From the IMG/VR virus record IMGVR_UViG_3300009078_000007, positions 1 through 30,606 of that record: a stretch of DNA of 30,606 nt; one strand, given 5' to 3'. The notes under the pieces were generated by a model. The model had not been told where the DNA came from. It searched no databases and was given only the letters and a program-made list of their open reading frames with translations. Positions 1 to 21,932 of this stretch are shown piece after piece. Both the position numbers and the translations under genes were made by a program. The stretch is from a virus. The number at the start of each line of letters is the position of its first letter. The stretch's first letter is position 1.

Positions 1-194
1 ATGTAGGTTTTTATATTGGCAGTAGTCGTATATTTGGTGTCATTGTCATCTGCGGAATCTTCAACAAGAAAAGAATCAAGAGCGACAAGAGTTGTTTTCT
101 GGTCTTTATCGTGCATCCTGAATGTTGCAGCATAAGCCATACTAAATATACCTATGAGACTTATTACCAATAATACCCACAATGACTTTTTCAT
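1..194 (-). CDS. Secreted fibre-like protein, N-terminal part (runs off left edge)
   Basis: Only the first 64 codons are present. They start at an ATG preceded by AAGGATATAACATT, a reasonable ribosome binding site. Residues 1-23 form a Sec signal peptide: KK, then a long hydrophobic stretch, then an AYA-A cleavage site. The mature start contains FLVEDSADDNDTKYTTTANI, which resembles the short 'D-x-FLVED...TKKITxANL' segments that recur in phage structural and fibre proteins. The gene lies directly after a hairpin/terminator-like structure with almost no room for its own promoter, so it is probably expressed by read-through from the operon. Reading frame and signal peptide are seen directly; a role as a surface or fibre-type protein is inference from a short motif. 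Confidence 0.7.
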   Translation of the reverse strand, partial: MKKSLWVLLVISLIGIFSMAYAATFRMHDKDQKTTLVALDSFLVEDSADDNDTKYTTTANIKTY

Positions 195-212
195 AATGTT
201 ATATCCTTATGC

Positions 213-257
213 TTTTAAAAACGTGGGAGCAGGTAGGAGGAGGGTTCCTGCCCCCAC
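213..257 (-). terminator. Terminator-like hairpin with short U-run
   Basis: On the minus strand an 11-bp stem (GTGGGGGCAGG pairing with CCTGCTCCCAC, one mismatch) encloses a 13-base loop and is followed by GTTTTTAAAA. This fits an intrinsic terminator, though the T-run is short and the stem is not perfect. It sits between two genes of the same orientation, only about 20 bases before the next start codon, so it may attenuate or set an mRNA end rather than stop transcription fully. Confidence 0.5.
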
Positions 258-264
258 TGTGGTC

Positions 265-291
265 CCTTAACCATCACCGGTCTGGTTAAGG
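265..291 (-). repeat. Perfect 9-bp inverted repeat after stop codon
   Basis: CCTTAACCA and TGGTTAAGG form a perfect 9-bp stem around a 9-base loop, six bases after the stop codon of the upstream small gene and just before the terminator-like hairpin. There is no U-run directly behind it, so alone it is not a classical terminator. It could stabilise the 3' end of the message or be a protein-binding site. Confidence 0.55.
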
Positions 292-297
292 CCGAAT

Positions 298-630
298 TTA
301 TTGCAACGGCACAGGTACATAACTATCTATCCATGCCTGATATGCCGCATTATAGTCGGCTTCCAACGTCTGCTTGGCAATTTCCACTTCATACTTGTTT
401 ATAAAGTCTGCAAGCTCATTCTTCATTTTGCGTATCAGACAGGCTTTGGGATCGAGCGTCTGTGTTACTACTCCATTCGCATCAACTACCGTGCAATTCA
501 GAGTACCAACTGCCGCCTGTAATCTTGCTACATAGGCATCTGGGACTGTTATGGAAAGAGTCACATCAGCCGCCCCTACCGGAACTGCCATTGCCAAAGC
601 CAATATCATTGCCAGAAATACTTTATTCAT
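298..630 (-). CDS. Small secreted protein of unknown function (110 aa)
   Basis: The ATG at 630 is chosen because AAGGAG lies 8 bases upstream; an upstream in-frame TTG lies before that site. Residues 1-21 are a Sec signal peptide ending in VGA-A. The mature part starts with a short beta-like segment (VTLSITVPDAYVARLQAAV), contains two cysteines, and ends in an amphipathic helical region (about residues 63-105) rich in K, E, A and Q. No family is recognised. It lies 11 bases after the preceding fibre-like gene and clearly belongs to the same transcript. A spanin or lysis role was considered, but there is no lipobox or second membrane segment. It may be a small partner of the secreted fibre-like proteins beside it, which is inference from position only. 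Confidence 0.75.
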   Translation of the reverse strand: MNKVFLAMILALAMAVPVGAADVTLSITVPDAYVARLQAAVGTLNCTVVDANGVVTQTLDPKACLIRKMKNELADFINKYEVEIAKQTLEADYNAAYQAWIDSYVPVPLQ

Positions 631-641
631 TTTTATTCTCC

Positions 642-2132
642 TTACCAATTCTGTTTCGCTCCAGGGTGGCGGTAAATGTCGAATTTAGAGCTTGTACCTT
701 TGTTATATACAAATCCAGAGTCTATCTGGAACCAACCTTGATTCACAAGGCCACGCTCCTTATAAATCTGGACGGCATTCAAGGGCGGGGCTGTTACTTC
801 GTAAAATTTGAGGTTATCCAGCCAGATTTCTTCGCCTATGGACATACCTATAAAATATATATATGCTGTCGTAGCAGAATTAACTACTGTATATAACTCA
901 AAGGGTATAAAATCTGTAGAAGTAACAGCTAAAGATGAAGCATCTCCAGCAACACTTGAATGTAACACTATAGTAACACTTCCAGCATTAACCTTGGCAA
1001 TTCCTGTCCATTTATATAACTTTTTTATAGTTAGATCAGATGAAAAATCTTTTGCTGAACTTATAAACTGTTTAGTTCCTGCTGAGTTACTCCCATAAGT
1101 AATATGCAAAGCCCCGCTGTCTATCTCAACCAAGTTAGTCCCAAGCTTAGTCCACGATATATCCACCGGATACACCTTGTCCCCAGCATCCAAGGTTACG
1201 CTCGTGCCCGAAGCAATAAACGTAGTCCCCACTACATTGTCAGGCGCACCATCATCGGTGAAGTTACCATCAGTCCTTGCTGAAATCTCATACATCGTAC
1301 CGACTGTCAACGTCCCGCTACTCAATTCAGCCAGCCTCAGATCAGTTAGGGTAAACGCACCCTTGTCCCCTGTACCACCTGAACCACCATTCTGATCGAA
1401 CAGGTTGGTTCCAACGTCTTCATCCCCACCATAAAGCGGAGAGACTAACTCGTTATACTCTCCTAACTTGACATAGCCATAGGCATATTTCCCTGCACTA
1501 TCGTCCAATACAATCAGGTCGCCATTGCTGACTACCCCGGGCTGAGTATTTGGGGAGGTTACTTGTTTTAGGGAACAAGAGGAATAGACGAGGTCGGTGG
1601 ACATAGAGGAGGCTTTGCTCATCTTAACATATATTGAAGTGCAACCAGTGGGAACTTGAAAATAAACATTATAAGTACCGTTGGTTGTCCAGCCTTGGTT
1701 AGCAGGACCTATAATACTTACAGAATGTATGTTATCAGTTATAGTAAGTCTGCAATCACCCTGAACATAATTAGAGATTGTTACTTGCAATCTAAAATAG
1801 CTTAAAGGAACAACTGTTTCATACTGGGTCATGCTGACATTTGCAGTACCATTACTTACCAGCCTCGCCCCATCAGCATGTTCAGTTACATAATTATTCG
1901 CATCTTCTTCGGTAACAGTCCAACTTGTAGGGTTATCCCCTACCCATGCTGAAAAATCGCTGTTACTTAAACCCTCAGCCCCAAGTATCTGCCCGCACCA
2001 CCATGACTGCCCGTCATAGAACGAGCCTCTCATATCCTCGTAGCTTGTCTCATCCTCATAGGATATGCCTATGGACAGGGCAATGGAGGGGATCAGCCAA
2101 AGGGATAGGAGTAAAAGAAATAACTTTTTCAT
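642..2132 (-). CDS. Secreted adhesin/fibre-like protein with two beta-sandwich modules (496 aa)
   Basis: GGGGAG overlaps the stop codon of the upstream gene and lies 7-10 bases before the ATG. Residues 1-20 form a signal peptide (KK, poly-Leu core, IALS). Two regions read like carbohydrate-binding-module or galactose-binding-like jelly rolls. The first (about 45-190) goes from SDFSAWVGDNPTSWTV to TDLVYSSCSLKQV. The second (about 325-450) ends in GEEIWLDNLKFYEV, the usual last strand of such modules ('wiDdv.lye'). Between them is a linker with GGSGGTGDKG. The C-terminus is rich in aromatic residues. The modules suggest binding of glycans or other surface polymers by a tail fibre or a secreted adhesin. 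The domain calls rest on pattern recognition; no catalytic motif is visible. It follows the fibre-repeat gene by two bases. Confidence 0.75.
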   Translation of the reverse strand: MKKLFLLLLSLWLIPSIALSIGISYEDETSYEDMRGSFYDGQSWWCGQILGAEGLSNSDFSAWVGDNPTSWTVTEEDANNYVTEHADGARLVSNGTANVSMTQYETVVPLSYFRLQVTISNYVQGDCRLTITDNIHSVSIIGPANQGWTTNGTYNVYFQVPTGCTSIYVKMSKASSMSTDLVYSSCSLKQVTSPNTQPGVVSNGDLIVLDDSAGKYAYGYVKLGEYNELVSPLYGGDEDVGTNLFDQNGGSGGTGDKGAFTLTDLRLAELSSGTLTVGTMYEISARTDGNFTDDGAPDNVVGTTFIASGTSVTLDAGDKVYPVDISWTKLGTNLVEIDSGALHITYGSNSAGTKQFISSAKDFSSDLTIKKLYKWTGIAKVNAGSVTIVLHSSVAGDASSLAVTSTDFIPFELYTVVNSATTAYIYFIGMSIGEEIWLDNLKFYEVTAPPLNAVQIYKERGLVNQGWFQIDSGFVYNKGTSSKFDIYRHPGAKQNW

Positions 2133-2134
2133 GG

Positions 2135-3226
2135 TTAGCTCCCCTTATTCTCCCATATACCATTGCAACTATCGCACGCCCAATCATAGGTTGTGCCGTC
2201 TATGGTAAAGGTATGGCAGGTAATGGACTCACCCACGGCAGGCTGTTGCGTCCATACTTGGTGGCCGTCAGTTAAAGCTGTCCCGTCCAAGTATATCTTA
2301 GTAGTCGAACCTTCAGGATCTAAGTAGCAGTCAGCAGTACCCCCTGAAGCATCGACAATAAGCAGTTTGAACTTGAGACCTTCGCCAACCGAAGTGTCTG
2401 CGTCAGGGAGAGTAAATATCTGGTCATTTGCTCCGCCCCAATCTTTATTAGTTATCAGGGTATCAGTACATTCAAGAGCGGTCAGAGTAACATTGTCAGC
2501 AGACTTTTCTACCGTATCAAAGCGGAATTGAGCTGTCCCATTGCTGTCTAAATTCCCATCCCCGTCAATAGACATAAATGAGCCAGTGCCTATCGAGTTG
2601 CCCTTGCCCATGTACCACAGGTCATCATCTACAGCATCATTGTCGCTGGTCTGACCCATCCAGAACCATGTATCACCTGTCTGACCATCCTCAAATACAT
2701 ACCCATCTACTGCATTAAAGTAGGTCGATGCTAATATTGGACCTGTTACGTTCATGCCAGCGAACATATCAACTGAGCCATCATCGTTTATGCGGAATCT
2801 CAGGTCCGTTGGAACAGTACCATTGCCATCTCCACCATAGATTTCAAATCTACTACCAGCCTTTAACAGCCAGTCATATTTACCGGCATACCGCCTTTCA
2901 AGAAAAAGACTTACATAGCCATCTGTGTCTCGACCTACGGTGAACAGGTCCGAAATCGATTCAAGATCAGTAAATGTGGCAGGAGCCGGAGTTGTCCCAC
3001 CAATCTCCCCCGGTGCAGCCATCTTTGCCGTGATATTGGCAGGAGTTGTCACCTTGTCTGTAGCTGTTCCAGTTACAGTTTCAGCATCAGTAGCAAGTTC
3101 TACCTCCCCGGCAACTGTCTCTGTGGCAGCTCTTGATGGATAAACCTCAGTCTCTACAGCAATAGCAGGCATCGCTATTAGCATGGAGAAGAATAAAACA
3201 TACGTTATTGATATAAATTTTTTCAT
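2135..3226 (-). CDS. Tail-fibre-repeat protein with N-terminal signal peptide (363 aa)
   Basis: AGGAG lies 7-8 bases before the ATG. Residues 1-23 are a clear Sec signal peptide ending in AIA. The next part, about 30-60, carries the classic phage tail-fibre repeat: AATETVAGEVELATDAETV followed by TDKVTTPANITAK (compare the usual 'ATETVaGiveLATaaE...avTPanl'). The rest is beta-rich with repeated FRI/FRF-DD-G and 'DGDGNLDSNGTAQFRF' motifs, as in fibre shafts, and a C-terminal region with four cysteines. A fibre role is well supported by the repeat. A signal peptide on such a protein is unusual, since phage fibres are normally assembled in the cytoplasm. The neighbours on either side are the giant virion protein and another secreted fibre-like protein. 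Confidence 0.8.
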   Translation of the reverse strand: MKKFISITYVLFFSMLIAMPAIAVETEVYPSRAATETVAGEVELATDAETVTGTATDKVTTPANITAKMAAPGEIGGTTPAPATFTDLESISDLFTVGRDTDGYVSLFLERRYAGKYDWLLKAGSRFEIYGGDGNGTVPTDLRFRINDDGSVDMFAGMNVTGPILASTYFNAVDGYVFEDGQTGDTWFWMGQTSDNDAVDDDLWYMGKGNSIGTGSFMSIDGDGNLDSNGTAQFRFDTVEKSADNVTLTALECTDTLITNKDWGGANDQIFTLPDADTSVGEGLKFKLLIVDASGGTADCYLDPEGSTTKIYLDGTALTDGHQVWTQQPAVGESITCHTFTIDGTTYDWACDSCNGIWENKGS

Positions 3227-3245
3227 TTGCGAACTCCTGTTTACC

Positions 3246-6200
3246 CTATTTCACTGAACCAGACGAAATTTTCCAAGGTGAATACCCTACCACTGAACTT
3301 TTCTTTTTCTTTGGTTTATCATGTTTAAATTGACTTATGGCTGCTGGCTCAAATTGTTTCTTTAATGCCGTGGCGCCCTTGAGTTCATCTCTGGTTTTGT
3401 ATTTTTCAAGAGTCATAAGTAGATAAAGGTTTTTAGATAATTTTTCCAAGAAAGCTATAGTAACGCCAAATGTCAGCAGAGTAAATGGAGTTAAGGCATT
3501 ATACAGAGTCCCCAACTCTCTTATTGCATAATATTTCAGCTTTCCGGCAAAACTGTCTTTATCGTAATCATCAGATGTCAAAGACAAAATAGCTGTTAGA
3601 ATTGCCCCCGTTTCTGCAAACCGGTAAAGTTCTTGAAATTGTTCTCGTGTAAGCCTTTTCTTCGGATTCCCAAGTCTTGTCAGTGTCCGTGCCAATGAAT
3701 TCACATCCTGTATGGTGGAACTGGCAATCGGTATAGCCCATCCTTTGAATTTTGTAATAGCTGCACCCGTTGACGTAGATCCCAAAATACTCTTAGAGCC
3801 TTCGATGTCAAGCCATCTGCCAGCTAATTTTGTAACTTCAGCCAACTTTTTGGGGTCAATTGTCTCTGCCTTAAATTCTTCCCTGGTCATGTTACCCAGG
3901 AGAATATCTTGTTTTGTAACTTTGCGACTCCACTTAAACAGCCCGTACAAAACCATGTTTATATTTTCGCCTATATTCCTCGCAGGCTGCATAACTTCTT
4001 CGAATACTCCTTCTCCAGTAAAAGCTTTGTATTTCTTTAGTATCCGTCTTCCTTTCGGAGTATGTCTTCTTATGTTCGCAAGTATAAGTTTTCTGTTTCC
4101 CAATGCAGGCAATTTTGCAGTTGTCTCACCAACAATAGCTGCCAACTCAAGGGGAATATTAAGAGCGATGTATCGGAGAGAAATCATCTGATTTACAAAC
4201 CTGATTACAGTATCTATTTTGCCACCTTGTTGTATGCCAATATTGAGAGTTCTTCCTTTTTTGTTATTCAGATATTCCTTAACAAATGTTATTAAGCTAT
4301 CATTTAAAAAAATTCCCGTTTTTGTTTTTTCCTTTGGTCTTAAAGCCAAAGCAAGAGTTTCTATTGCAGGAACAGATTCATCAAGTGCCATTTTTTTGAA
4401 AAATTGCTGCATATATATATCTGTGGCTTTGATAATATTTTTAGTAGGGGTTAGTTCTCCGGTTCTGTATAGTGTTTGCCGGAAAAACTTTTTCATCCTT
4501 AGTATCTTGCCTGTTTTGCTGTCAAGTATTTTGAATTGTGCTTCATCTAATTGCCACCTACGCAACAAATCTTTTGCAGCACTTTTAATCCCAGTATCTT
4601 TTAGATCAACCAACATTTCACTTATAGGTCGCTTAGAATGGAAAACATATTTACTGTCAGCAAAGCGAGAGTTTTTCAGTTCTTGATTTATAAGCAACCA
4701 ATTATAGGCTCTGCGGTAAAAATCCTCTATCCCGTCTGCAAGAGCTATTTCTTCTGTAGTTAGTTTTGTTGCGATTTCTATTTTGGCATCTTCTTCCGCT
4801 TCCAAATATTCCATCAATTCTTTTTGACGTGGAATCAATCTTCCAATTATTCCTCTTTTTTTTGATTTTAACGCTAATTTGGCAAGGCTATAGAGCTTTT
4901 CTCTTTCTTTAAAATATTTGAATTGATTTTTAATTTCTGCTGTTTTTATCGTATCAACCATGAAGTTATAGAAGGCATTTTGCTTGGCAAGGGAAGTATC
5001 GTATCTAAATCTGTCAATTTCATGTACCCGAATTTTTGCAAGTTCTGACATTGGAATATCAAATTCTTTTGAAGCTTTTTCTAATACTTCACGTATAGTT
5101 TTTGAACCTGCCCAAAGTGTTTTTTCTATTCCCTTTATCCTTTTTGGAGTTAAGAATTGATCCCCTTTTTCATATTTGCTTAAAATGCCCAAATATTCGG
5201 TTAACTGATTTTTGGTCATGTTTTTGATAGTCGGAAGTTTGTGGAATTTTCGGATATTGTCTTCAGCGATAAAAGCCTTTTCTTTCCTAAGCAATTCCAG
5301 TTCATTCATAGCTTGCTGTCTCTCGACAAATTTTTCAGCAATTGTTTGTTCTCTACCTTCAGGGGTTACAAATATGTTTCCAAGGTAGCGATCTTCTCCA
5401 AACTTCACTTTTATATAATCAATGAACTGTTCAAATTCATAGTTAGACATCAACCGAATATCTTTCCATGATATTTTCTTTAAATCATTATCCGACAAGT
5501 TAAAATAGTCTCTGATAGCTTTGATTTTTTCTCTACGTCTTTTAATAATATCCTTTTCTGCCCCAATTTCGATTGCCCCTCTTTCGCTTTTAAGCACCTT
5601 CTTGGCAGCATCATACGCCCTTAGCATTAAGGGTTTAACTCTGTTCCAAACATCTTTAAGTTCTGCCTTCATATAAGAAACAAAGTCTTTATAAGATTTG
5701 TGCCCTCTCTTGATAGCATCCGCCCCCAACTGAGACAGATCATTTATGAGATCGGACGAACCTTTCTCTGACTTGATATTTTCGAAAAGATTTGCCTTGG
5801 CATCGCCCAGCCTTATGGTGTCAAGCTTCTCACCATTACGCTCAAGAAGGGCCATGCGATCGAGAACAGTCTGATCCCAAATGACAAAATTTGAAGTTTG
5901 TTTTGGTGGGATTAATTCATATTCAGGGTTACGCTTAATAAAGGCTTCGGCTTCCCCTTTGGTATTAAAAACGTTCTCTCCGCCCTGTGGATGTTTTGCA
6001 ACCCACTCAGTTCTGTTACGGCTCCCTGCATCGAGATATTTGTTACCAGGAATACCTATAGAAGCAAGATATTCGGAGGCTTGTGATTGTCCTCCCATCT
6101 TTGCGGACAATTCGTAGTAAATGCGTTCTGGATTTAGGTCTTTTGGTCTCCATACTCCGAATCGGTCATGAAGTGACGCATTTTCTGGATCTTTACCGCT

Positions 6201-9200
6201 CAAGAATGGTGCGTACTCAGTCTTCGCAAGAACTTCCTTTACATACTCACTCTGTTCACTGAGCGGTTTATCCCAATCCAACAGTTTGGGAAGGACATCG
6301 TCAGGAAGTTCGAGGGTGTAGAGAGAACCTTCTTGTATCGGAACCTCTTTTATCTTAGAAAAAACATTGTGTAGCCTCTCCAGGCCACGATCAGCCGCCA
6401 TGTTTTTATTTTCTTTTAGCCCTTTATTCATCAACCAATCGGCAGCCGTCCATGCTAAGTCATGCTCGTACCCCATATCCTCAAGTGCCCAAGCGACATC
6501 GTTTCTTTCAAAGCGATCTATTTGCTTTCCGTCTATTACTATCTTATCAGCTATAGCTCGTTGCAAGGTTTCTTTATAGCTTCTCGCTACCTCTTCTGCC
6601 TCTGCAACATAAAACCCATGCCCATAAGCAGCAGCCCCTTCTCCGGTCCCGATTTTATCCAGTCTTGGCCTGCCATGAGGGTATCCCTTTTCTGGAGGCC
6701 ATACATGAGGCGTACCATGCTTGAGTGCCTGATATTGCTCAAGAGCTTTTACCCTTACTTTCCGTGAAGGCTTGCCCAAGTCACGATCAAAAACCTTACC
6801 GCTCTCAATATCCCTCATTACTCCCTTGGCGGTACGCTTAAACAGGTTTACAAAGGCATCAATCAAGTCTGAGATTTTCTGCAATATCCTGCCAAGAGGC
6901 CCCTTTATGGATCTGTCGCGCAGATTCTCGGTTATGAATACCGCTCTGTCTTCTTCTCCACCAACCTCTCTGTTCCCTGAATCCCACTTACCTTCTTTTT
7001 GCAGTCTCTTGATATGGTTGCTCATAATGGCTTTTTCAATAGAAGAGATATAGCCAAGGTCTTCAAAGAAATGGATTGATTCGTGAGTAGCTGTCCACGG
7101 TTCTTCTCCTGTACCACGGACAAGCTCTATTGAACTATCTTTATATTTTCCGGTAATAAACTCACCCTTTTCCAGCATCTTCCCATGACTGATTAATAAG
7201 TCTGCCTTATTAGGCTCGATCTGCTTTACGCTCCGAACAACAAAACCTTTTCCGTTCTTGTTGCGTACCCATACAGAACCATCGGGAGAAATCCCCATAG
7301 TGGTGTTCTTTAATGGCGGGGCCTTGCGGAGAATATCAAGAAGGGATTCGTCGCCCTTGACTGGTATTGACTTGCCGAATTCGTATTGCTCAGGTTTTAA
7401 TAAATTATCTTCTAATCTTTCGGTGTCTTTATAAGCCCCTGTCTTTGCATCTCCCCTACCGATCTTAATATCCGTTCCTTTGCCTCCCTTGATAAACTCA
7501 TTGATAGTTTCCCGAAGTCGCTCAAGAAAGTCTCTTTTGATTCTGTCTTTTTCTCCTTTGCTTCTGACATTTGACAATTCCTCCGCATATTTATTTAGTT
7601 CATTACTAATTTCACCCTTTGAACCTGCTAATTTTTCAAAAATATCTTTAATTAATGCAGCTTTTTCTGCCACAGTTTTGCTTTTGTTGACATCAATTAT
7701 GTTGCCACCAATAGTCAATTTCTTGGCAGCACCTTCTTGCCCTACAGTGCCGAAAAGTCTTTTTTCTTTTGCTAATTCATTAACAGCATAATCTCTGAGT
7801 TCAGCTCTCTCCATAAGAAGAGGACGCTCGAAAGATTCTGGACCAAATATAACACCGTCTTTAACCTCAACTGTTCCAACAACTTCTCCATTAATATCCT
7901 TAATTAATTGTTCAAGAACCCCTATATTAACCGTCTTTCCTGATCGTTTTACCTTGTCCAGATAACGGATTAAATCAATTTGCATATCCTGATTATCAAG
8001 ATTTTCTCCAATAGTAACTCCCCAATTTTGAGGAATCTCTCTCTTCTCTACTGAATTAAAAATAGTGGGATGCAACCTTGATAAAGCCAAACCCTTTCTG
8101 GCTATATCTCCTTTAAGAGAAATATGGTATTTCTTATTTACATCATCTGCCGTTAAACCATATTCCCTAAAAATAACTGCCGCATCTTCTGGGGAACCAT
8201 TATTCTCAGCTATATTGATTAAGGCTCCCTCATATTTAGCTTCTTCTGCTGTTTTTACTTTTGAAAAACGAACTGGTACTGTTTCTTTCCCCGTTCTTTG
8301 GGCTATATCGTATCTTTGGTGTCCATTTGAAACAAATACTTTACCAGTTTTTGGATCTCTCCATACAGTTAATACTCCGCCGAATTTCTCATCAAATTCT
8401 TCTGCGTCACTTAATTTCCCTGTTACTCCTTTTTCATCTGTAAATCGTTTATACTGCAATGTCTTGGCATCAATAAAAAGGTCTTTAACTGGAAATTTAG
8501 GATCTATGCTTCCCGGTTCCTGGGTAGCTGGCGGGGCAACTGGCTCAGTTTCTTTAGCCTCAGCAGGCATGAACTCTTCTAATGGCCCATAGTCTTTTTC
8601 GTGAAGTTCTGTATAGCGTTCAGGGGTAAGATTACCTTCAGAAAGAGCTTGCTTGATAATTCCTTTATGCCCCTTATTATCTAAAGTCCCAAGTGCAATT
8701 AGTTCTGCTCTTCGTTGTGCAAAACCTTCTAATTGCCCACGTTTTGTTTTGTCCAAACTACGGCTAAGAATAAGTTTATCTTGGCCTGTAATCCCTTTCT
8801 TTTTAAATGTTGCACCAATAATTCGTATTTCGTCATTAATTACTTCTTGTTTAGCATTTTTTAACCGTTCTTGGCCTTCTGGTGATGCAAGCCATTCATC
8901 TCCCCCCATCTCCCACGATTGTTTCTCAGCTTTAGCCTCAGCAGGCTTAACCTCTCCTTCAGCCTCTATGGTTTCAATTCCTTTTGGCCTTGTCCCCGGA
9001 ATTATCGGAGTCATCGGAGGCGGGCCTGTCAGTTTGCCCTCAGAGGCGTCTATGGCCTCCCTGTAAAGGTTTGCTTTTGAAGACGCAATTACCGCATCAT
9101 TAAGCTTGTTCTCCCCTGTAAGCCCGTCTCCCCCAGCATAAGCCTCTTTAGCTTCAGCTTGTAATCTGTCTGATTCAGCGTAAGCCTCGTCTCTCTTAAC

Positions 9201-11519
9201 CTTCAGTTGCTCTACCTGCTTAGGCGTTGCAGTCTTGCCAAACTCTACTGCCTCTGGAGAACCTTTGAGTTCTGGAATTTCGATAGCAGGAGCTTCAACC
9301 TTTGCTGTTATTTCCCCCTCACCCTTAATCCCTCTTAATGTCTCTTCTAAGTTCTTCCTGATACCAGCCCTTTGTTCTTTAGGAGCATCTGCGATAGCTT
9401 TCAGCCCCTTGTTACGCAACCCCTCTATGAGCTTGTCTTTAGATACAGTGGCTTCAGAAGCATGTTGTATAGCCTTAGCAGGGTCTTTAGAAGCATATTC
9501 CACCAAAGTACCAAGCTCTACATCATTAACCCTGTCAGACTCTTTAAGCATGGCAGGAGTTTGAGCCTTGATTTTTTCTGAGCTTGTTCTTAATTTGCTT
9601 TCTTTCGCAATTAATCCAGGAGGAACTTTAGAACCTAATTCTGGTCCGTATTTAGCGGTAAAAGCATCCGCCATAGTCTTGCCTACTACTTGTTCTGCGA
9701 CAAGCTCTTTTGGAGTTTCAGCAACAGGTTTCAGCAAAGAAGGTTTCTTTATCGCTTCTTCTATGTTAGGCGATATAACAGGTTCAGTTTTGGCACTTGG
9801 CCCAGCTTGAGGCGGTTGTTCGGGAGCCATTCTCTTTTTAATGGCTTCTTGGAAGAGCTTGTCTCGTTCCGCAGGATTATTGATTGTTCTTAATATGGTC
9901 CCTTCGCTATGGCCTGCTTGCCTTAAATCATCAATAGATTGGACTACAAGACCACGTTCTTTTACTTCTAAATTTCTGTACCAATTTGTAGAAAATATTT
10001 TCTTAAAGATTTGTCCAGTTGCCCCTAATGCTCCCTCTAATGTACCAAAGAAAGCGGCATCTTTAGCTACACCCTCTGGTGTCCCTTCTTCAAGCAATCC
10101 ATAAAGACCACCGGCAAGACCGCCTCTTACTATATGCCCTGCTATTTGGTCTATAACCGGTCCAGTTTTTAAAACTAAATCAATAGGAAGACCAAAGGCT
10201 TTCATCATTGCGTTAGCTACTTTAAATGACATACTGATAGGAGCTATCGCACCTGCCATTTGGGATGCACCACCAACTACTTTTTGTGTATCTTCAGGCA
10301 GGTATTCGCCAAACTTAGAAATTCCCTTATCTATATAAGAAGTATAATCTTTGCCGGTAACAGCTTTTGTAATAGGTTGTGCAATAGCTTTTTCTGCGGC
10401 TCTCGGGATCATACCACGGGCAAGAGAAACAGCCCCATAAGGAGCAAGAGCCATTGCAGCCTTACCACCCTTTGCTACTTCTTCAGGTGTGGGAATAGGC
10501 TTGCTGGTAATAGTTGAAACAGGATGAATCATTTTGATACCATATTCAGCTTGCTTCAAATCTTCTAATTCACCTATTAAGTTTTTGGCTTCTTCTATCC
10601 TAACATTATGAGCGTTTATCTCGACATTATAATCTTCGATAGCTTTTTCATATTGTGGACGAAGTTTAGTATATTGTTCATACAAATCAGGAGGCAAAGC
10701 ATTATCAACAGCCTTAGAAGTTATTTCTCCTATTTTTATTTCTAAGCTCTTAATATTACCTAATCTTTTTTCAATAGCTTTACGGTCATCTTGCTCATCT
10801 TTTTGCTTTGGTCTTGTAAGCTCACCAAGCCTTTTATTAATTTCCTCTTTGCGGGCAGAAATATCATTAGGAATACCAGCAGGAATAGTTGATTCAGGCA
10901 TTCCCTCCATACCTTTTGGGACATTCGATTCAGGCGCAAATTGAGTAGTAAAATCAGGAACCTTGCTAATAGTTTCTTTTACAAACTCTTTGCCACGTTC
11001 AAGCATAGAAGAAGATTTACCTTGATCTAAAGTTGCCGTGTCCCCAGATATACCCAAAAACTCATCCACTGACATTTTCTTAGCCGGTGATATTTGAGTA
11101 TCAGGCAAATCTTCTTTTTGAGCAAAAGGATTTTTACCTTCTGCAAGTCTCATCTTTGCATGGTCAACAGCTTTTCTAACTATTGTCTCAGTAGGCGACT
11201 TACCGCTAAGCAAATAGTTTCTTTCTTCTAAACTTAGAGTCGGAACTAAGCTTGGGATTTCCAAATCTTTACCATCTATATTAACCCCTATAGATAACTC
11301 AGTTGAAATATTGCCGTCTGGCCTTGATAATGGCCCAAAATATCCTTGTCCTTTCTGTGTATTATCTTCCCTTAAACCATAATTTTTAACAGATACTTTT
11401 TTGTCTGAAGGTTCTTTAGCTTTATCTGGTGCAGATATGCCCAAGAACTCATCCACTGACATCTTCTTGGGAGCTATCTGATTACCAGATGCGGAAGCTA
11501 AATATTCATCAACATTCAT
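3246..11519 (-). CDS. Giant polyvalent (injected) virion protein: ParB-like, zincin, ART-PolyVal and LPD38-like domains (2757 aa)
   Basis: The start ATG lies five bases after the upstream stop, with only a weak site (GAGTAAG). Visible order: (1) residues 1-160, three copies of an M-x-VDE-F/Y-L motif (1-7, 18-29, 147-158) around a conserved virion segment (YGLREDNTQKGQGYFGPL, RPDG, STELSIGVNIDGKDLEIPSL); (2) 350-520, Gly/Ala-rich hydrophobic segments; (3) about 1015-1140, a ParB/ddrB-type domain with NGHQRYDIAQRTG at 1065; (4) a zincin with HESIH at 1479-1483 and candidate third ligand E1522 or E1523; (5) about 1595-1895, an ADP-ribosyltransferase of the polyvalent class with HGTPH at 1601, GTGEGAAAYGHGFYVAE at 1624, LLDWDKPLSEQ ending at 1756 and GIPGNKYLDAGSRN at 1822; (6) about 2480-2660, an LPD38-like region and further hydrophobic segments. 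Polyvalent proteins are known to travel in virions and carry anti-host effectors. Domains are recognised by motif; injection and targets are inference. Confidence 0.85.
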   Translation of the reverse strand: MNVDEYLASASGNQIAPKKMSVDEFLGISAPDKAKEPSDKKVSVKNYGLREDNTQKGQGYFGPLSRPDGNISTELSIGVNIDGKDLEIPSLVPTLSLEERNYLLSGKSPTETIVRKAVDHAKMRLAEGKNPFAQKEDLPDTQISPAKKMSVDEFLGISGDTATLDQGKSSSMLERGKEFVKETISKVPDFTTQFAPESNVPKGMEGMPESTIPAGIPNDISARKEEINKRLGELTRPKQKDEQDDRKAIEKRLGNIKSLEIKIGEITSKAVDNALPPDLYEQYTKLRPQYEKAIEDYNVEINAHNVRIEEAKNLIGELEDLKQAEYGIKMIHPVSTITSKPIPTPEEVAKGGKAAMALAPYGAVSLARGMIPRAAEKAIAQPITKAVTGKDYTSYIDKGISKFGEYLPEDTQKVVGGASQMAGAIAPISMSFKVANAMMKAFGLPIDLVLKTGPVIDQIAGHIVRGGLAGGLYGLLEEGTPEGVAKDAAFFGTLEGALGATGQIFKKIFSTNWYRNLEVKERGLVVQSIDDLRQAGHSEGTILRTINNPAERDKLFQEAIKKRMAPEQPPQAGPSAKTEPVISPNIEEAIKKPSLLKPVAETPKELVAEQVVGKTMADAFTAKYGPELGSKVPPGLIAKESKLRTSSEKIKAQTPAMLKESDRVNDVELGTLVEYASKDPAKAIQHASEATVSKDKLIEGLRNKGLKAIADAPKEQRAGIRKNLEETLRGIKGEGEITAKVEAPAIEIPELKGSPEAVEFGKTATPKQVEQLKVKRDEAYAESDRLQAEAKEAYAGGDGLTGENKLNDAVIASSKANLYREAIDASEGKLTGPPPMTPIIPGTRPKGIETIEAEGEVKPAEAKAEKQSWEMGGDEWLASPEGQERLKNAKQEVINDEIRIIGATFKKKGITGQDKLILSRSLDKTKRGQLEGFAQRRAELIALGTLDNKGHKGIIKQALSEGNLTPERYTELHEKDYGPLEEFMPAEAKETEPVAPPATQEPGSIDPKFPVKDLFIDAKTLQYKRFTDEKGVTGKLSDAEEFDEKFGGVLTVWRDPKTGKVFVSNGHQRYDIAQRTGKETVPVRFSKVKTAEEAKYEGALINIAENNGSPEDAAVIFREYGLTADDVNKKYHISLKGDIARKGLALSRLHPTIFNSVEKREIPQNWGVTIGENLDNQDMQIDLIRYLDKVKRSGKTVNIGVLEQLIKDINGEVVGTVEVKDGVIFGPESFERPLLMERAELRDYAVNELAKEKRLFGTVGQEGAAKKLTIGGNIIDVNKSKTVAEKAALIKDIFEKLAGSKGEISNELNKYAEELSNVRSKGEKDRIKRDFLERLRETINEFIKGGKGTDIKIGRGDAKTGAYKDTERLEDNLLKPEQYEFGKSIPVKGDESLLDILRKAPPLKNTTMGISPDGSVWVRNKNGKGFVVRSVKQIEPNKADLLISHGKMLEKGEFITGKYKDSSIELVRGTGEEPWTATHESIHFFEDLGYISSIEKAIMSNHIKRLQKEGKWDSGNREVGGEEDRAVFITENLRDRSIKGPLGRILQKISDLIDAFVNLFKRTAKGVMRDIESGKVFDRDLGKPSRKVRVKALEQYQALKHGTPHVWPPEKGYPHGRPRLDKIGTGEGAAAYGHGFYVAEAEEVARSYKETLQRAIADKIVIDGKQIDRFERNDVAWALEDMGYEHDLAWTAADWLMNKGLKENKNMAADRGLERLHNVFSKIKEVPIQEGSLYTLELPDDVLPKLLDWDKPLSEQSEYVKEVLAKTEYAPFLSGKDPENASLHDRFGVWRPKDLNPERIYYELSAKMGGQSQASEYLASIGIPGNKYLDAGSRNRTEWVAKHPQGGENVFNTKGEAEAFIKRNPEYELIPPKQTSNFVIWDQTVLDRMALLERNGEKLDTIRLGDAKANLFENIKSEKGSSDLINDLSQLGADAIKRGHKSYKDFVSYMKAELKDVWNRVKPLMLRAYDAAKKVLKSERGAIEIGAEKDIIKRRREKIKAIRDYFNLSDNDLKKISWKDIRLMSNYEFEQFIDYIKVKFGEDRYLGNIFVTPEGREQTIAEKFVERQQAMNELELLRKEKAFIAEDNIRKFHKLPTIKNMTKNQLTEYLGILSKYEKGDQFLTPKRIKGIEKTLWAGSKTIREVLEKASKEFDIPMSELAKIRVHEIDRFRYDTSLAKQNAFYNFMVDTIKTAEIKNQFKYFKEREKLYSLAKLALKSKKRGIIGRLIPRQKELMEYLEAEEDAKIEIATKLTTEEIALADGIEDFYRRAYNWLLINQELKNSRFADSKYVFHSKRPISEMLVDLKDTGIKSAAKDLLRRWQLDEAQFKILDSKTGKILRMKKFFRQTLYRTGELTPTKNIIKATDIYMQQFFKKMALDESVPAIETLALALRPKEKTKTGIFLNDSLITFVKEYLNNKKGRTLNIGIQQGGKIDTVIRFVNQMISLRYIALNIPLELAAIVGETTAKLPALGNRKLILANIRRHTPKGRRILKKYKAFTGEGVFEEVMQPARNIGENINMVLYGLFKWSRKVTKQDILLGNMTREEFKAETIDPKKLAEVTKLAGRWLDIEGSKSILGSTSTGAAITKFKGWAIPIASSTIQDVNSLARTLTRLGNPKKRLTREQFQELYRFAETGAILTAILSLTSDDYDKDSFAGKLKYYAIRELGTLYNALTPFTLLTFGVTIAFLEKLSKNLYLLMTLEKYKTRDELKGATALKKQFEPAAISQFKHDKPKKKKSSVVGYSPWKISSGSVK

Positions 11520-11524
11520 AATAC

Positions 11525-12628
11525 TTACTCGTCAAAAAGCTCAGGGAATCTTTGTAACAATAATTTACGTTTTGTTTCAGCAGAAAGACCAGATGCTTTA
11601 ACTTTCTCCGGTGTAGAAACATCAACCTTTTTAATAGCTACAGAATCAGGCCAAAAAGGCTTTTTTTCTTCTCCTATTGCATAAATATAAGGTTTCCCTG
11701 AATTTTCATTGAAAAAGTCTATATCCACTTCAGCCGTTGCCATATCTTCACTTTCAAGTATTCTCCGCTCTGATTCTCTTATTTCCTTGGCTCTTTGCCT
11801 CTCTTCTGAAAAAGGCATCATTCGTTCTTTATCTTCTTTAGGAGGAGCCCTATGTCTTGCTTTTGCGCTTTCACTTGCTTCTGCTTCTCTTTCTTTCATT
11901 TTTATATATGCATCAGGATCAGTATAAGCAAATTCAGTAGCAGAAGAAGGGACTTTAGTCTTTGGAGCCGCAACAAAAGTTTGAGGTTTCTGATACCCTG
12001 TTAATGTACCCTCAGTAGTTCCCGCAGATTGATCTTCACTTACCTGCCCTGGTTCAGTATAAGGGTTAATACCAAAATTTTTAGCTTTTTCCACTCCCTT
12101 TTCATTTAAAGATACTCCCAATTCTCCTAATCCTTTTACTACATTAAATTCATGTTTTTCCCTTTCTATCTTTTGTTCAGAGGTAGGGAGGATGCCTGAC
12201 TCTTGCAGTAGTTTTAACGTCATAATCGTATCGCCAAAACCCAAGCCATACTGACTTGCAATGGAAAAAATTTCTCCTGTAGGGATTTCTTTCCCTTCAT
12301 TAAGATATGAAGAGATTGTATCAGCTATTATCGGTCCAACAGTTTGCAGTTGTTGTCTTTTCTGATTAGCCAATACAGGTTCTATGCTCTGCATTATAGC
12401 AACAGGGTCAATGTCAACATCAGCAAGTAACCTGTTTACTTCATCCCACGGAATATCTTTTTGCTGAACTAAGCCAAGTATAGCCTGATGCGTTCTTTCC
12501 TGACGTTTTTTCTGCATAGAATCAATCCATGTCTGCATCCCCTGATTAAGACTTTGGATGCCTCCAGCCAAATCGTTTGATCCCTGTGATTGATTCTCAT
12601 ATAATGAAGCTGCTAATGAACTTCTCAT
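11525..12628 (-). CDS. Probable internal virion / ejection protein (367 aa)
   Basis: The start lies after AAGAGGTAACAGGTT. No known domain is recognised. Residues 1-50 are polar and Gln-rich (SLNQGMQTWIDSMQKKRQERT); the middle (50-200) is predicted helical; about 255-300 is a highly charged segment (KERMMPFSEERQRAKEIRESERR) likely to form a long helix. The product has no signal peptide or membrane segment. It lies between a 765-aa Ala/Gly/Gln-rich protein and the giant polyvalent protein, in the position where podoviruses carry their internal core or ejection proteins. That position is the only ground for the role. Its stop is five bases before the start of the giant gene, suggesting coupled translation. 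Confidence 0.75.
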   Translation of the reverse strand: MRSSLAASLYENQSQGSNDLAGGIQSLNQGMQTWIDSMQKKRQERTHQAILGLVQQKDIPWDEVNRLLADVDIDPVAIMQSIEPVLANQKRQQLQTVGPIIADTISSYLNEGKEIPTGEIFSIASQYGLGFGDTIMTLKLLQESGILPTSEQKIEREKHEFNVVKGLGELGVSLNEKGVEKAKNFGINPYTEPGQVSEDQSAGTTEGTLTGYQKPQTFVAAPKTKVPSSATEFAYTDPDAYIKMKEREAEASESAKARHRAPPKEDKERMMPFSEERQRAKEIRESERRILESEDMATAEVDIDFFNENSGKPYIYAIGEEKKPFWPDSVAIKKVDVSTPEKVKASGLSAETKRKLLLQRFPELFDE

Positions 12629-12650
12629 AACCTGTTACCTCTTAATAATA

Positions 12651-14948
12651 TTAATACATCGGATCATAAAACCAACCACCATTATACATTGTAGCAGTAT
12701 CCGCTGATTTATTCCAAGAATCCCATAAATTACTGGCTGTTGTTGCAGCACCAAGTCCTGCCCCGGCTATATCCAGCCAACCTCCAACCTTAGACATTGT
12801 TGACTGTTCCGGCCCCTCATACGTCATATTAGTATCTTGTGACGGAATACCGTATGCTAATTGCTGTACTCCCATACCTGCTTTCGCAAGTATATCTGCA
12901 TATTGCATAAAGGCCGTATACGGGGTATTTTGCTGTGCATATTCCCACTGAGCCGCAGGAGCCAGCATATTTGTAGCCATACGCTGTTGTTCAGCCCCCA
13001 TACCACCTGTCATCATTACATTGCCAACGGGTTTACCGCCAAAAGAAATATTAATGGGATTAGCTTTTGCAGTATCAATGGCTTGATTGACTGGCTGTGC
13101 ATTCTGTTTGATAGCATCAACATATTGCTGATTCTGCTGATCGAGATATTGTTGCTGCCCACTCAAGGCTTGAGCTAAATAAGAAGGCTGCCCTTCCCCC
13201 GGAGAACCAAAAACATTATTCAGAAACATCTCCCAGATTGCTTCTCCGCCGGCAGGCAATGGCCCCGGAGTCTTTATTTGTTTTTCTTCCCCTGATACAT
13301 TATTGTCACTCATGTTATTACTCCCGGTTGATCCCGCCAATCCTAAAAAGCTACTCGAATAAGGAGTAGAACCTAAAAAAGATTGTGGCATCATATTTTG
13401 CAGAGGTTGTGATGTTGTACTTTGTTCTGGCAAAGTTGGCAAAGCCGATGAAGTTCCCAAAGAATTTGTTTGCGGTTGTACACCCTGTGATGGTATCAAA
13501 AAATTAGCATCAGAAGGAGGCATCCCTTGTGCAGAAAGTAAAAAATTAGCATCAGAAGAACCGGGGATACCACTCCCAGCCGTGGCAACAGGCTGTGTTG
13601 ACCCCCCAAGCAAAGCGTTGGCATCAGTGGGAGGTTGCCCAAATACACCACCTTTACTAACAGGTGACTGGGGAAGACTTTGTTTTACCTGATCCCAATT
13701 ATCTATATACCCTAAATATGTACGACCGCCCTGTTGTATTTCCGAATCTTTGGAAAACCCACTACTATCATCTTTGCGAATACGATCTTTACCTTTCGTA
13801 CCATAAAAATCTAATACCTGTCCATTTTCAGGATTAATAACACCAGATAAATATCCAGAACCAGCATCAGCTAAATAGCCGTCCTGATTCATTAAATATT
13901 CTTTTCCACCCACGGTTACAGGTTGCCATCCGCTTTCAACGCTTGGCTTCTCTACATAACCTTGGGGGATAAGTACCTTGTTATATATCTCAGATTGGAA
14001 CGCAGATGGATCAAACAAAACAGGATCAGTATTAGTTCTTTCATTCCAGTTCTCAGACAGATCAACAGTTTCCCATTCATCAGATGAAAAATATTTCTCA
14101 AAATCCTCTTTGCTATTTATTCTTCCTTCTATTCTTTGCAATTCATTGGTTGCAGGATTATATCTTAAAAGAAATCCCCTCTCTACATCAAATGCTTCAT
14201 CAAACTCTTCCCTTGGCATAAAGTTTTGGCGTCCCTGCATCGGGCCACCAGTAAATCCACGACCATACGATGTTTGGTAAGCTGCCAAACGTTTATCAGA
14301 ATCAATATCTTCTAACCTACTATAATCACTCTGTTGCCCTGATTTTAATGCGTTAATGTCTTCATCAGTCCCAAACTTATCCCCCTCATCGGTAAGGCTG
14401 GAATTTGTATCATAAAGGTATGTCCATCCATTATCGTCCTGACCAACTACATCTAAAACAGGTGTATGCCAGTAAATATAGTGTTTCTTGTGTTTATTTT
14501 TTTGAGAACTGTAATATTGGACACCAAGAGTTAAGGCTTCCAGTGCCGCATACATTGGGGCCGCAGGCCCGGCAAAAGCCATCCCGGCAAAGTTGGCAAT
14601 ATTCCAAGCCCCTTCATGAGAAGGATCTTTAAGAAAATCATAAGAGGATAAACCAAGACCTATATACGGCAACCAGTTACCTATTGATCCAGCTCCAGCC
14701 ATTTGAGCATTTTGAGCAGCCTGATTCGCATATTGAGTAGCGGCAGTACCGGTAAGTCCCATTTCTGTGGCAGCTTGCAAACCTTGTTGAAAAGCTTGCT
14801 CCGCAGCCATTGAACTATAAGCACTATACGCACCAAGCCCTTGGTATGCCCCCTGTGCCGTTTGTTCTATGTCACCTTCCCGAAGCCCCTGGTACAAACC
14901 AAGCGCCCCTTGTGCCCCGCCTAATCCTGGCCCTATCGTTGTTGCCAT
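12651..14948 (-). CDS. Probable internal virion / DNA-ejection protein, Ala/Gly/Gln-rich (765 aa)
   Basis: The ATG at 14948 is one base after the upstream stop; a longer frame from an upstream TTG would overlap that gene and is less likely. Residues 1-160 are rich in A, G and Q with helical hydrophobic stretches (IGNWLPYIGLGLSSYDFL; AGMAFAGPAAPMYAALEALT). Residues about 441-485 hold three copies of an S-DAN-x-LL motif (DANALL, SDANFLL, SDANFLI) in a P/G/S/Q-rich linker. The C-terminus carries another Gly/Ala hydrophobic helix (GGWLDIAGAGLGAATTASNL). This composition, low in charge with membrane-active-looking helices at both ends, is typical of proteins ejected from podovirus heads to form a channel through the envelope. 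No homologous family is recognised with certainty. Confidence 0.75.
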   Translation of the reverse strand: MATTIGPGLGGAQGALGLYQGLREGDIEQTAQGAYQGLGAYSAYSSMAAEQAFQQGLQAATEMGLTGTAATQYANQAAQNAQMAGAGSIGNWLPYIGLGLSSYDFLKDPSHEGAWNIANFAGMAFAGPAAPMYAALEALTLGVQYYSSQKNKHKKHYIYWHTPVLDVVGQDDNGWTYLYDTNSSLTDEGDKFGTDEDINALKSGQQSDYSRLEDIDSDKRLAAYQTSYGRGFTGGPMQGRQNFMPREEFDEAFDVERGFLLRYNPATNELQRIEGRINSKEDFEKYFSSDEWETVDLSENWNERTNTDPVLFDPSAFQSEIYNKVLIPQGYVEKPSVESGWQPVTVGGKEYLMNQDGYLADAGSGYLSGVINPENGQVLDFYGTKGKDRIRKDDSSGFSKDSEIQQGGRTYLGYIDNWDQVKQSLPQSPVSKGGVFGQPPTDANALLGGSTQPVATAGSGIPGSSDANFLLSAQGMPPSDANFLIPSQGVQPQTNSLGTSSALPTLPEQSTTSQPLQNMMPQSFLGSTPYSSSFLGLAGSTGSNNMSDNNVSGEEKQIKTPGPLPAGGEAIWEMFLNNVFGSPGEGQPSYLAQALSGQQQYLDQQNQQYVDAIKQNAQPVNQAIDTAKANPINISFGGKPVGNVMMTGGMGAEQQRMATNMLAPAAQWEYAQQNTPYTAFMQYADILAKAGMGVQQLAYGIPSQDTNMTYEGPEQSTMSKVGGWLDIAGAGLGAATTASNLWDSWNKSADTATMYNGGWFYDPMY

Positions 14949-14949
14949 T

Positions 14950-16194
14950 TTAATACCACATAATCCCAAATTGTTCAGGAGTTAAAGTAGCAGTTGTCGT
15001 GTTTAAAGGCTGTCCAGTATTAATATTAAATGTTTGTGGGTTAATGCCACTACTATTACTTGCCACCGGAGTTGTGGCAGATATTGTTGATGTGTCAGGA
15101 TTCCCATATTGAGCCATATAAGGCAATGCTCCATATAACAAACTATATGGAGCCAACGGGTTACGTGATTCAGACTGAGAACCACTTGTTTGTGTAGTAT
15201 ATTTTCCAAGATCACTGACTATCCCACCAAGAGTTACAGGATATGCTGTTTGGTACGCAGCTTCCTGCCCTGAAAGCTGGCCTAAAAGTTCAGCCTGTTG
15301 CCCAGCTAAAGCCGCCTGTTGCGGTAAAATACTTTGGTAAGCCATATTGGCCGCACCTGCCAAAGCTCCCGAACCAACTGTTGAATTAATCATATTTTTA
15401 GACGCAAGTTGGTTAATAGCACCTTGTAAGGCAGGCTGTATCTGTTGCTGATATACAGACGGCAAATAGTTTTGAGCATTTTCATAGCCTTGTGTCGTCT
15501 GGTTTCTTGCTGTATCATAAGCACCTGAAATTAATGCGCTGAACTCTTCAGGCGTCATGCTCTTCTGTAATTGCGCCATCCATGCAGCGATAGTAGGCGA
15601 ATACTGTTCACCTATTCCAGAATATGAAGCCCCTTGTGCCTGAGAAGTACTCCAAGGGCCTTCTACTCCTGAAACATCAGGCAAATTAAAAACAGATCCG
15701 GTTGATTGAGAACCGCTCGTACCTCCGCTACCACTATAAGTACCAGAGATTACATTGCCCTTTTCTGTAGTGTAAACAGCCTTACCACTGGCATCTGTGG
15801 TTATTTTCCCCATAGATTGACCAGAAGTACTTGTCAATTCACCTGTGTTAAAATCATATCGCCCAACTACCTGACCTGTATTCTGGTAAATAAAATTACC
15901 ACTGCTGTCCACATAATACCTATCATCCCATTGCCCTGTTGGATCTTGACTCGATCCCTGCGAACCAAAACTAAAAGATAATGCAGGTGTTGTATCTGGA
16001 TTTCGTACTCCACCACCAGCTATCATATCAAGATCTCTGACATCAGGATTTGTTGAAGATACCCCCTGAGCTAAATTGATACCAGTATTACTGACACCTG
16101 TCCCTGTATTTACATTGGTCTTGTCTGTAGCGTCAGAATTTTGACTAAGCTCAACTAACTTCTTTATAAAATCCGCAAGTGCTGATGTTGCCAT
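14950..16194 (-). CDS. Probable internal virion protein, Ser/Gly/Gln-rich (414 aa)
   Basis: AGGA lies about 12 bases before the ATG. The N-terminus has a short helix (ADFIKKLVELSQ) and is then low-complexity, rich in T, S, G and N. About residues 85-150 contain short beta-like turns of the type YYVDSSGNFIYQNTGQVVGRYD. Residues about 195-330 are helical and Gln/Ala-rich (YLPSVYQQQIQPALQGAINQ; LPQQAALAGQQAELLGQLSG). The gene sits in a chain with three other proteins of similar composition and ends one base before the next ATG. The helical Gln-rich part fits an internal core or ejection protein; this is inference from composition and gene order. No catalytic motif is seen. Confidence 0.75.
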   Translation of the reverse strand: MATSALADFIKKLVELSQNSDATDKTNVNTGTGVSNTGINLAQGVSSTNPDVRDLDMIAGGGVRNPDTTPALSFSFGSQGSSQDPTGQWDDRYYVDSSGNFIYQNTGQVVGRYDFNTGELTSTSGQSMGKITTDASGKAVYTTEKGNVISGTYSGSGGTSGSQSTGSVFNLPDVSGVEGPWSTSQAQGASYSGIGEQYSPTIAAWMAQLQKSMTPEEFSALISGAYDTARNQTTQGYENAQNYLPSVYQQQIQPALQGAINQLASKNMINSTVGSGALAGAANMAYQSILPQQAALAGQQAELLGQLSGQEAAYQTAYPVTLGGIVSDLGKYTTQTSGSQSESRNPLAPYSLLYGALPYMAQYGNPDTSTISATTPVASNSSGINPQTFNINTGQPLNTTTATLTPEQFGIMWY

Positions 16195-16212
16195 AATATC
16201 ACGTCCTATGTA

Positions 16213-16713
16213 CTAAAATTTTACACCATACATTGTATTGGCAAGAGTTCCCGGCATAGAGTTTATGCCATAAGCACCTAATGGTTGCTGAACTGGAGAC
16301 ATAGCATACGGTTGATTATAAGCCCCTGCATTTTGTCTATATGCACCTGCCGGTGCAGTATTTATCCCATATTGAGATGCAGTATGTACTCCATATTGAT
16401 TAGGGCGTCCTGCCATAGTAGTATTTACGCCATATTGCTGAGGAGTAGTATTTACGCCATACTGATTTTGAGTGTTTACCCCATAGGCATTGGCAGGAGA
16501 CCTTCTCAAAGCCATTAAAGCCGCAAGTGTATTAACGCCACCAGGCTGAGAAGAAGAAGGATTAATCTCACGGGCTACAGGTGTACCCCCAGGAGGCGAA
16601 ACTGTGTATATGCTACCCGTACCAGATGGAGCAACATTAGTTCCTGTTCTTGAGTTCGGTACTGAGTAAGTCTGTTGTGACGGGTTTCTCGTGTAATGGG
16701 GGAATATTGCCAT
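16213..16713 (-). CDS. Small virion-associated protein with YGVNT repeats (166 aa)
   Basis: A very good site, GGAGGT, stands 8 bases before the ATG, which fixes the start although the first 77 bases overlap the preceding gene in another frame. The protein is Pro/Ser/Asn/Gln-rich and looks disordered. From about residue 76 it carries spaced repeats: AYGVNTQN, QYGVNTTPQ, QYGVNTTMAG, QYGVHTAS, QYGINTAP, later AYGINS and a C-terminal MYGVKF. Repeats of this kind suggest a low-complexity linker or a peptide that binds the same partner several times. It lies immediately before the large ejection-type proteins. No known family is recognised. Confidence 0.75.
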   Translation of the reverse strand: MAIFPHYTRNPSQQTYSVPNSRTGTNVAPSGTGSIYTVSPPGGTPVAREINPSSSQPGGVNTLAALMALRRSPANAYGVNTQNQYGVNTTPQQYGVNTTMAGRPNQYGVHTASQYGINTAPAGAYRQNAGAYNQPYAMSPVQQPLGAYGINSMPGTLANTMYGVKF

Positions 16714-16894
16714 CGTCTTTTACCTCCGATGCTATTTCATAATATATTTTTACGATAAACTCTTCTAAAAAGCCAGCCAAGCCAGCTATCAATTCCTTGC
16801 TTAACCTATTGCCTCTATTAGAAATATCAAACTCCTGTATAAACTTTCTAAGTTTTTTCTGTACTACAGGTCTTAAATCTTTATCTTTAACCAT
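16637..16894 (-). CDS. Small helical protein of unknown function (85 aa)
   Basis: I place the start at the ATG at 16894 (ATGGTTAA, overlapping the upstream stop by eight bases), because GAGG lies about nine bases before it. In-frame ATGs slightly upstream are possible. The product is charged and helical (MVKDKDLRPVVQKKLRKFIQ; LIAGLAGFLEEFIVKIYYEI). The last 25 codons overlap the next gene in a different frame. Its position after a similar small helical protein suggests a tail or head completion partner, but nothing in the sequence defines the function. Confidence 0.65.
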   Translation of the reverse strand: MVKDKDLRPVVQKKLRKFIQEFDISNRGNRLSKELIAGLAGFLEEFIVKIYYEIASEVKDDGNIPPLHEKPVTTDLLSTELKNRN

Positions 16895-17231
16895 TACTAT
16901 CATCCTCATCAGGATATGGCGGCACACCTTCAGGCAATGGATCACACAAAGCCTCTTTTGGAAGTTTGCGGTCTATTTCCAGCTTTCTTAACAACATCTG
17001 GAGAACCTTGTCTGCCATGTTGGCATTAAGGCAAAAATCTATTGCCTTCTTGTATCTTTCATCCCTGAAAAGCAGTCTTATCGGTTCTTTGTTTATCAGT
17101 TCACCGGCAGCATTATATTTTTTGTTAACTGCTTCAACCTGCATTTTCTTTACTTCAGCGTCAAATGCAAAACGCAATATCTCTATTTTTTCACTTGCCA
17201 CTTGTATCGTTTGTTTAATCTCTGTTTTCAT
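16887..17231 (-). CDS. Small helical protein of unknown function (114 aa)
   Basis: CGAGGTATATA precedes the ATG. The protein is predicted mostly helical with an amphipathic N-terminal half (SEKIEILRFAFDAEVKKMQV) and a second helical block (RYKKAIDFCLNANMADKVLQ). It ends in an acidic, Pro-rich tail (PEGVPPYPDEDD). It starts 11 bases after the fibre-like gene and overlaps the following small gene by eight bases, so the two are probably translated together. No family is recognised. Confidence 0.7.
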   Translation of the reverse strand: MKTEIKQTIQVASEKIEILRFAFDAEVKKMQVEAVNKKYNAAGELINKEPIRLLFRDERYKKAIDFCLNANMADKVLQMLLRKLEIDRKLPKEALCDPLPEGVPPYPDEDDSNG

Positions 17232-17242
17232 TATATACCTCG

Positions 17243-18457: not shown

Positions 18458-18458
18458 T

Positions 18459-21130: not shown

Positions 21131-21160
21131 CTACAACTACCTTCACATGGATTAAAGAGG

Positions 21161-21180
21161 GACGTAGTTATTACTACATC
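21161..21180 (-). repeat. Short hairpin between accessory and adaptor genes
   Basis: GATGTAGT and ACTACGTC form an 8-bp stem (one G-U pair) around the loop AATA in the 59-base gap before the adaptor gene. No U-run follows, so it is not a convincing terminator. It might shape the mRNA leader of the adaptor gene. Confidence 0.4.
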
Positions 21181-21189
21181 CCATTATAT

Positions 21190-21912: not shown

Positions 21913-21932
21913 TTTATTACCTCACATTATTC

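Follow-up and report, generated by a model that had tools for sequence, protein, structure and literature searches.

The window examined here, a linear viral contig of 30.6 kb (30,606 nucleotides; IMG/VR record IMGVR_UViG_3300009078_000007) in which 29 open reading frames (ORFs) were called, carries at its left end a run of four minus-strand genes, named g1 to g4, whose products begin with predicted Sec-type signal peptides. Two of them, g1 and g4, appear to be related to phage tail fibres. The features of this run are as follows (aa, amino acids).

3226..2135, minus strand: g1, 363 aa; leader (residues 1-23), then a tail-collar-fibre repeat (about residues 31-72), then a C-terminal part that relatives share, its four Cys being invariant
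3158..3226, minus strand: leader of g1, MKKFISITYVLFFSMLIAMPAIA; two relatives have unrelated but signal-like leaders
2132..642, minus strand: g2, 496 aa; Sec-type leader; N-terminal 240 and C-terminal 40 residues conserved, middle exchanged
630..298, minus strand: g3, 110 aa; Sec-type leader and a mature protein of roughly 90 aa with two invariant Cys
217..262, minus strand: terminator-like hairpin behind g3, GTGGGGGCAGG..CCTGCTCCCAC followed by GTTTTT; conserved in three phages
194..3, minus strand: g4, at least 64 aa seen, running past the window edge; Sec-type leader followed by a fibre-type N-terminal module

A Shine-Dalgarno-like sequence lies just upstream of the ATG in each of the four genes, and g2 starts 2 bases past the stop of g1. 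The starts are well constrained, because the ribosome-binding sites and the tight gene spacing leave little room for alternatives. The hairpin between g3 and g4 is strong, with the g4 start only ~25 bases behind it; a terminator scan missed it on account of its long loop. The same virus is represented by another contig (G001, 45.5 kb), >99.9% identical where compared; in the compared loci it spans window positions 2035-9226 and 12498-30606, and it ends at 2035, so that most of g2, together with g3 and g4, is known for this virus from the window only.

Predicted signal peptides

The leaders were evaluated with a home-made scorer that considers charge, the hydrophobic core, the -3/-1 rule, and whether a membrane segment follows. 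The predicted leaders are MKKFISITYVLFFSMLIAMPAIA (cleaved before VETE) in g1, MKKLFLLLLSLWLIPSIALS (before IGIS) in g2, MNKVFLAMILALAMAVPVGA (before ADV) in g3, and MKKSLWVLLVISLIGIFSMAYA (before ATF) in g4; the g3 site was chosen by hand, the scorer giving residue 15 for the window copy and residue 20 for a 94% identical copy. By this scorer, all four leaders show the features of Sec substrates of signal peptidase I (SPI), namely a positive n-region, a hydrophobic core, small residues at -3 and -1, and no later membrane segment. None of the window leaders has a lipobox, and 0/4 contain Cys. The scores were 11.5 (g1), 10.3 (g2), 10.8 (g3), and 13.0 (g4), against 9.1-12.7 for 12 known Escherichia coli signal peptides, on which alone the absolute scores are calibrated. 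None of the other intact window genes scored above 6.2, no Met position in them reached 9 (0/167), and, as a base rate, 2 of the 163 genes of three comparison phages scored at least 9. Shuffled copies of the four proteins reached 9 in 0/300 (g1), 0/300 (g2), 5/300 (g3), and 2/300 (g4) cases. Judging from this likeness to known Sec signal peptides, export of the g1-g4 products is well supported by sequence, and the original prediction of four such leaders, on the products starting at 3226, 2132, 630, and 194, is borne out (scores 10.3-13.0).

Four Cys are invariant in g1, three in g2, and two in g3, which is compatible with oxidative folding of these proteins. Because leaderless window proteins also hold Cys, Cys content counts only as compatible with export.

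Relation to tail fibres

Residues 15-72 of g1, right behind the leader, match the tail collar fibre family phrog_910 (E 1.5e-5), and the g1 relative in another viral contig, G003, matches the tail fibre families phrog_2712 and phrog_1980. The g4 relative in G003 has a repeat that is shared with tail fibres of Escherichia and Acinetobacter phages. It is only for g1 and, via relatives, g4 that the term "fibre" rests on homology. The general view of receptor-binding fibres is that they belong to the virion and are put together in the cytoplasm. The repeat of the g4 relative occurs in ordinary tail fibres, and the named proteins with this repeat that were checked are leaderless: 0/3 had a signal-like start, two of them being annotated as tail or tail fibre proteins. 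This supports the earlier view that export is unexpected for fibre-like proteins, above all for the 363-aa product of g1.

Relatives of g1, g2, and g3 among named phages were not found by tblastn, and a PDB sequence search returned zero relatives of g1-g3. Weak Pfam matches of g1 (VSP) and g3 (Tic110) were below the cut-off and were discarded. The suspicion that g1 and g4 share a C-terminal domain found no support in a profile comparison (probability 1.5%).

The cassette in other phages

The protein queries were compared with 2.9 million viral contigs by means of short exact peptide patterns, a search that distant relatives would escape. Two more contigs with the cassette were found, G002 (L003; 44.8 kb) and G003 (L004; 57 kb), and repeat viral scans returned the same contigs. 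The g1 relatives share only residues 88-363 of the window protein, at up to 87% identity and with an insertion in the G003 copy, while their N-terminal part is replaced, leader included; the new leaders, MKRLTLFIIAFIILLYSQAFA and MKKLWLLIVMLLLPVFA, are again signal-like. The g2 leader is nearly unchanged among the phages (2-4 synonymous and 0-1 other base changes), and g3 including its leader is 90-94% identical in the two relatives. The full-length g4 relatives are 563 and 746 aa long; the g4 leader is of the SPI type in the window and in G003 and is a lipobox leader, MKNLLCLLAIGILFISC (LFISC), in G002. The original prediction had named relatives without the leaders as a finding that would count against it; when the comparison was made, the relatives were found to keep export signals even where the leader sequence had been exchanged. 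That the leader sequence is replaced while its type is kept is the strongest sign of selection on export itself.

In G002, four genes for predicted exported proteins lie in a row (a 137-aa protein, g1, g2, and g3), followed by two leaderless genes and then the lipobox g4. A leaderless 162-aa protein between g3 and g4 of G002 (42011-42499; L003 8302-8790) has a sub-threshold match to Agglutinin_C. In G003, the row consists of six such genes, namely g1, g2, g3, g4, a gene for a 247-aa protein, and one for a polysaccharide lyase protein; the last, also with an export signal, combines polysaccharide lyase PF14099 (8.4e-19) with an F5/8C carbohydrate-binding-type domain (1.5e-24). Several further small genes with Sec or lipoprotein leaders are located near the other end of G003 (50615-55750). 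The contig G005, a relative in the structural genes of the window, encodes a predicted exported PIG-L-type deacetylase (PF02585, 4.1e-8) a few genes beyond its fibre-like gene. Since the window, G002, and G003 also have leaderless fibre-like genes, virion fibres probably do not come from the cassette alone.

The head modules of the three phages differ, with a P22-type portal and Phage_capsid_3 in the window, an SU10-type portal in G002, and Phage_capsid_4 in G003. The virus of the window shares tail-side genes with G002 at 54-86% identity, and beyond the cassette it shares with G003 only small genes of the other genome half, many of them at 88-100%. Thus, the cassette moves between phages that probably share hosts. 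G001, G002, and G003, whose head modules differ, have several early genes in common at 90-100% amino-acid identity, suggesting that genes are exchanged within a shared pool of hosts.

Proposed role of the cassette

Our explanation, in which belief and doubt are about equal, is that this is a mobile late-region cassette of Sec-exported, partly fibre-derived proteins that bind or alter surface glycans or receptors. In this explanation, g1 and g4, at least, would be tail-fibre modules with a signal peptide fused in front. The host Sec machinery would export the cassette proteins during infection, the leaders would be cleaved, and the mature proteins would take up their fold in the periplasm and work there, at the cell surface, or beyond it. 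Late in infection they would bind to, or change, surface glycans or receptors belonging to the infected cell or its matrix, and the likely gain is that progeny and rival phages would not be stuck uselessly on the infected cell, debris, or matrix. The lyase/F5/8C protein and the PIG-L-type deacetylase of the relatives would contribute to this by cleaving or modifying glycan. Binding or change of glycans or receptors seems to us the most economical purpose; Llp of phage T5 does this to FhuA by a different route (PMC9586334). More tentatively, and with doubt somewhat ahead of belief, we propose that fibre modules have been turned into a Sec-exported set that is swapped as a unit between head types and that masks, removes, or binds receptors and matrix glycans before lysis.

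Several points weigh against this explanation. The genes g2 and g3 matched no fibre family and no known family in Pfam, PHROG, or NCBIfam, and have no recognised function; the AlphaFold2 models of g3 and g2 are of low confidence (mean pLDDT, the predicted local distance difference test, of 55.5 and 43.5, respectively); and the searches yielded no more than three independent copies of the cassette. The place of the genes in the operon, directly behind the virion genes, also fits a virion part. The endpoint of Sec export, periplasm or outside, would depend on the host envelope.

Of the meanings offered originally, the best fit is that the proteins are displayed on the infected cell or secreted from it. 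Maturation of the virion outside the inner membrane is less likely because there are separate leaderless fibre-like proteins and because different heads occur with the same cassette. A related possibility, which we regard as unlikely, is that the proteins are virion parts that travel via the periplasm, being exported and disulphide-folded there and joining the particle only at or after lysis. The genes do lie at the end of the structural series, the usual fibre position in podoviruses, g1 and g4 contain fibre modules, the exchange of N-terminal modules with shared C-terminal parts is like ordinary fibre evolution, and the invariant Cys would suit such a route. On the other side stand the assembly of virions in the cytoplasm, the leaderless fibre-like proteins and the varied head modules mentioned above, the one lipoprotein-type leader, which would tether its protein to the membrane, and the lyase with an export signal in the same run in G003. 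The third of the original meanings, host-gene-like cargo joined to fibre modules, holds in part: the extra enzymes of the relatives (polysaccharide lyase and deacetylase) agree with it, but for g1-g3 no cellular homologue was found in limited searches of cellular genomes.

It seems rather improbable that the cassette serves lasting surface display, for adhesion or matrix binding, in a long or chronic infection or in lysogeny, in the manner of phage tail-protein adhesins. PblA and PblB of Streptococcus phage SM1 are tail proteins that reach and bind the host cell surface (PMC7600539), and the presence of a lyase with an F5/8C domain in the cassette of G003 is also in line with such a role; however, the sequence parts seen showed no integrase, in contigs that are perhaps incomplete and without a systematic integrase search, and no cassette member was found in two scans of bacterial genomes with the g3 and g4 alignments, a weak negative since two short peptide patterns were used for each. 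Release of PblA/PblB needs the phage holin and lysin, whereas g1-g4 each have their own Sec-type leader; the two are compared here by description. That the leaders are uncleaved membrane anchors or belong to a lysis function (signal-anchor-release (SAR) endolysins, spanins, or exported endolysins) is improbable to a greater degree. N-terminal export signals are well known among phage lysis proteins, and Lys44, the signal-peptide endolysin of fOg44, and the SAR endolysins are late phage proteins exported by the host Sec system (PMC6116005). These are lysis enzymes, whereas g1-g4 gave no match to a lysis-enzyme domain or spanin family; in addition, every leader has cleavage-site-like residues, g1, g2, and g4 are large, g1 and g4 are fibre-like, and several members stand in a row. 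Finally, chance hydrophobic starts or wrong gene starts are a very remote explanation: the scores do come from a home-made scorer rather than SignalP, but the starts are fixed by ribosome-binding sites and spacing, the base rate is about 1%, and the replacement leaders of the relatives are again signal-like.

Comparison with known exported phage proteins

Exported phage proteins as such are already known. A limited search of the open-access literature returned no account of Sec signal peptides on the tail-fibre proteins of tailed phages. Llp of phage T5 is a small exported lipoprotein with a disulphide that blocks the receptor FhuA from the periplasm (PMC9586334). Like Llp and Cor-type proteins, g3 is small and has a leader and two invariant Cys. 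Unlike the lipoprotein Llp, g3 has an SPI-type leader and lies in the late structural region, while g1, g2, and g4 differ in their large size and in being fibre-like in part; the likeness is drawn from description. In Pfam, PHROG, and NCBIfam, g3 matched no superinfection-exclusion family, and no direct comparison with Llp was made. WceF of Pantoea stewartii is a tailspike-like trimer with an export signal that acts on exopolysaccharide (PMC7949094). Compared by description, WceF is encoded by a host gene, carries a Tat signal, and is a beta-helix enzyme, unlike the phage-borne, Sec-type cassette.

If the cassette acts as we propose, an infected cell would have a phage-made secretome, and receptor-binding modules would have a second, non-virion use with dedicated export signals. 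Some fibre annotations in viral metagenomes would then describe non-virion proteins. How lytic phages keep their progeny from being lost to receptors on infected cells, on debris, and on matrix could be tested directly with the cassette, and the combination of a signal peptide with a fibre module is a simple sequence screen for more cases.

Genome setting of the window

Further features of the window are as follows.

3246..16713, minus strand: internal-virion/ejection-type genes (2757, 367, about 766, 414, and 166 aa), the upstream boundary of the predicted exported cassette
17243..18457, minus strand: leaderless fibre-like protein, 404 aa, with relatives in G002 and G005
20507-21130, minus strand: SU10-type adaptor
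22495-23607, minus strand: Phage_capsid_3 major capsid protein
25077-27161, minus strand: P22-type portal

The best match of the 404-aa protein is phrog_25191 (1.9e-5), a family itself of unknown function, and we read the protein as fibre-like from its repeats and its place in the genome. It is taken as a cytoplasmic virion fibre. The ejection-type genes (3246-16713) have zero Cys in the parts counted, which comprise >4,200 residues in five genes, and the flanking genes on both sides have Cys. In the matching block of G002 (29125-38786), zero Cys were likewise counted in about 2,900 residues of seven genes. The absence of Cys from this internal-virion block may be a mark of proteins that have to cross the periplasm unfolded.

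A DUF559 nuclease-like protein is encoded near the right end of the window (29818-30297), and an OrfB_IS605/TnpB-type gene lies in the early region of G001 (37409-38497; L018). An in-frame insert of ~320 aa, which contains intein splicing and LAGLIDADG domains, interrupts the terminase genes of G004 (6194-8503) and G005 (L026 6399-7421), and the terminase of the window is without this insert.

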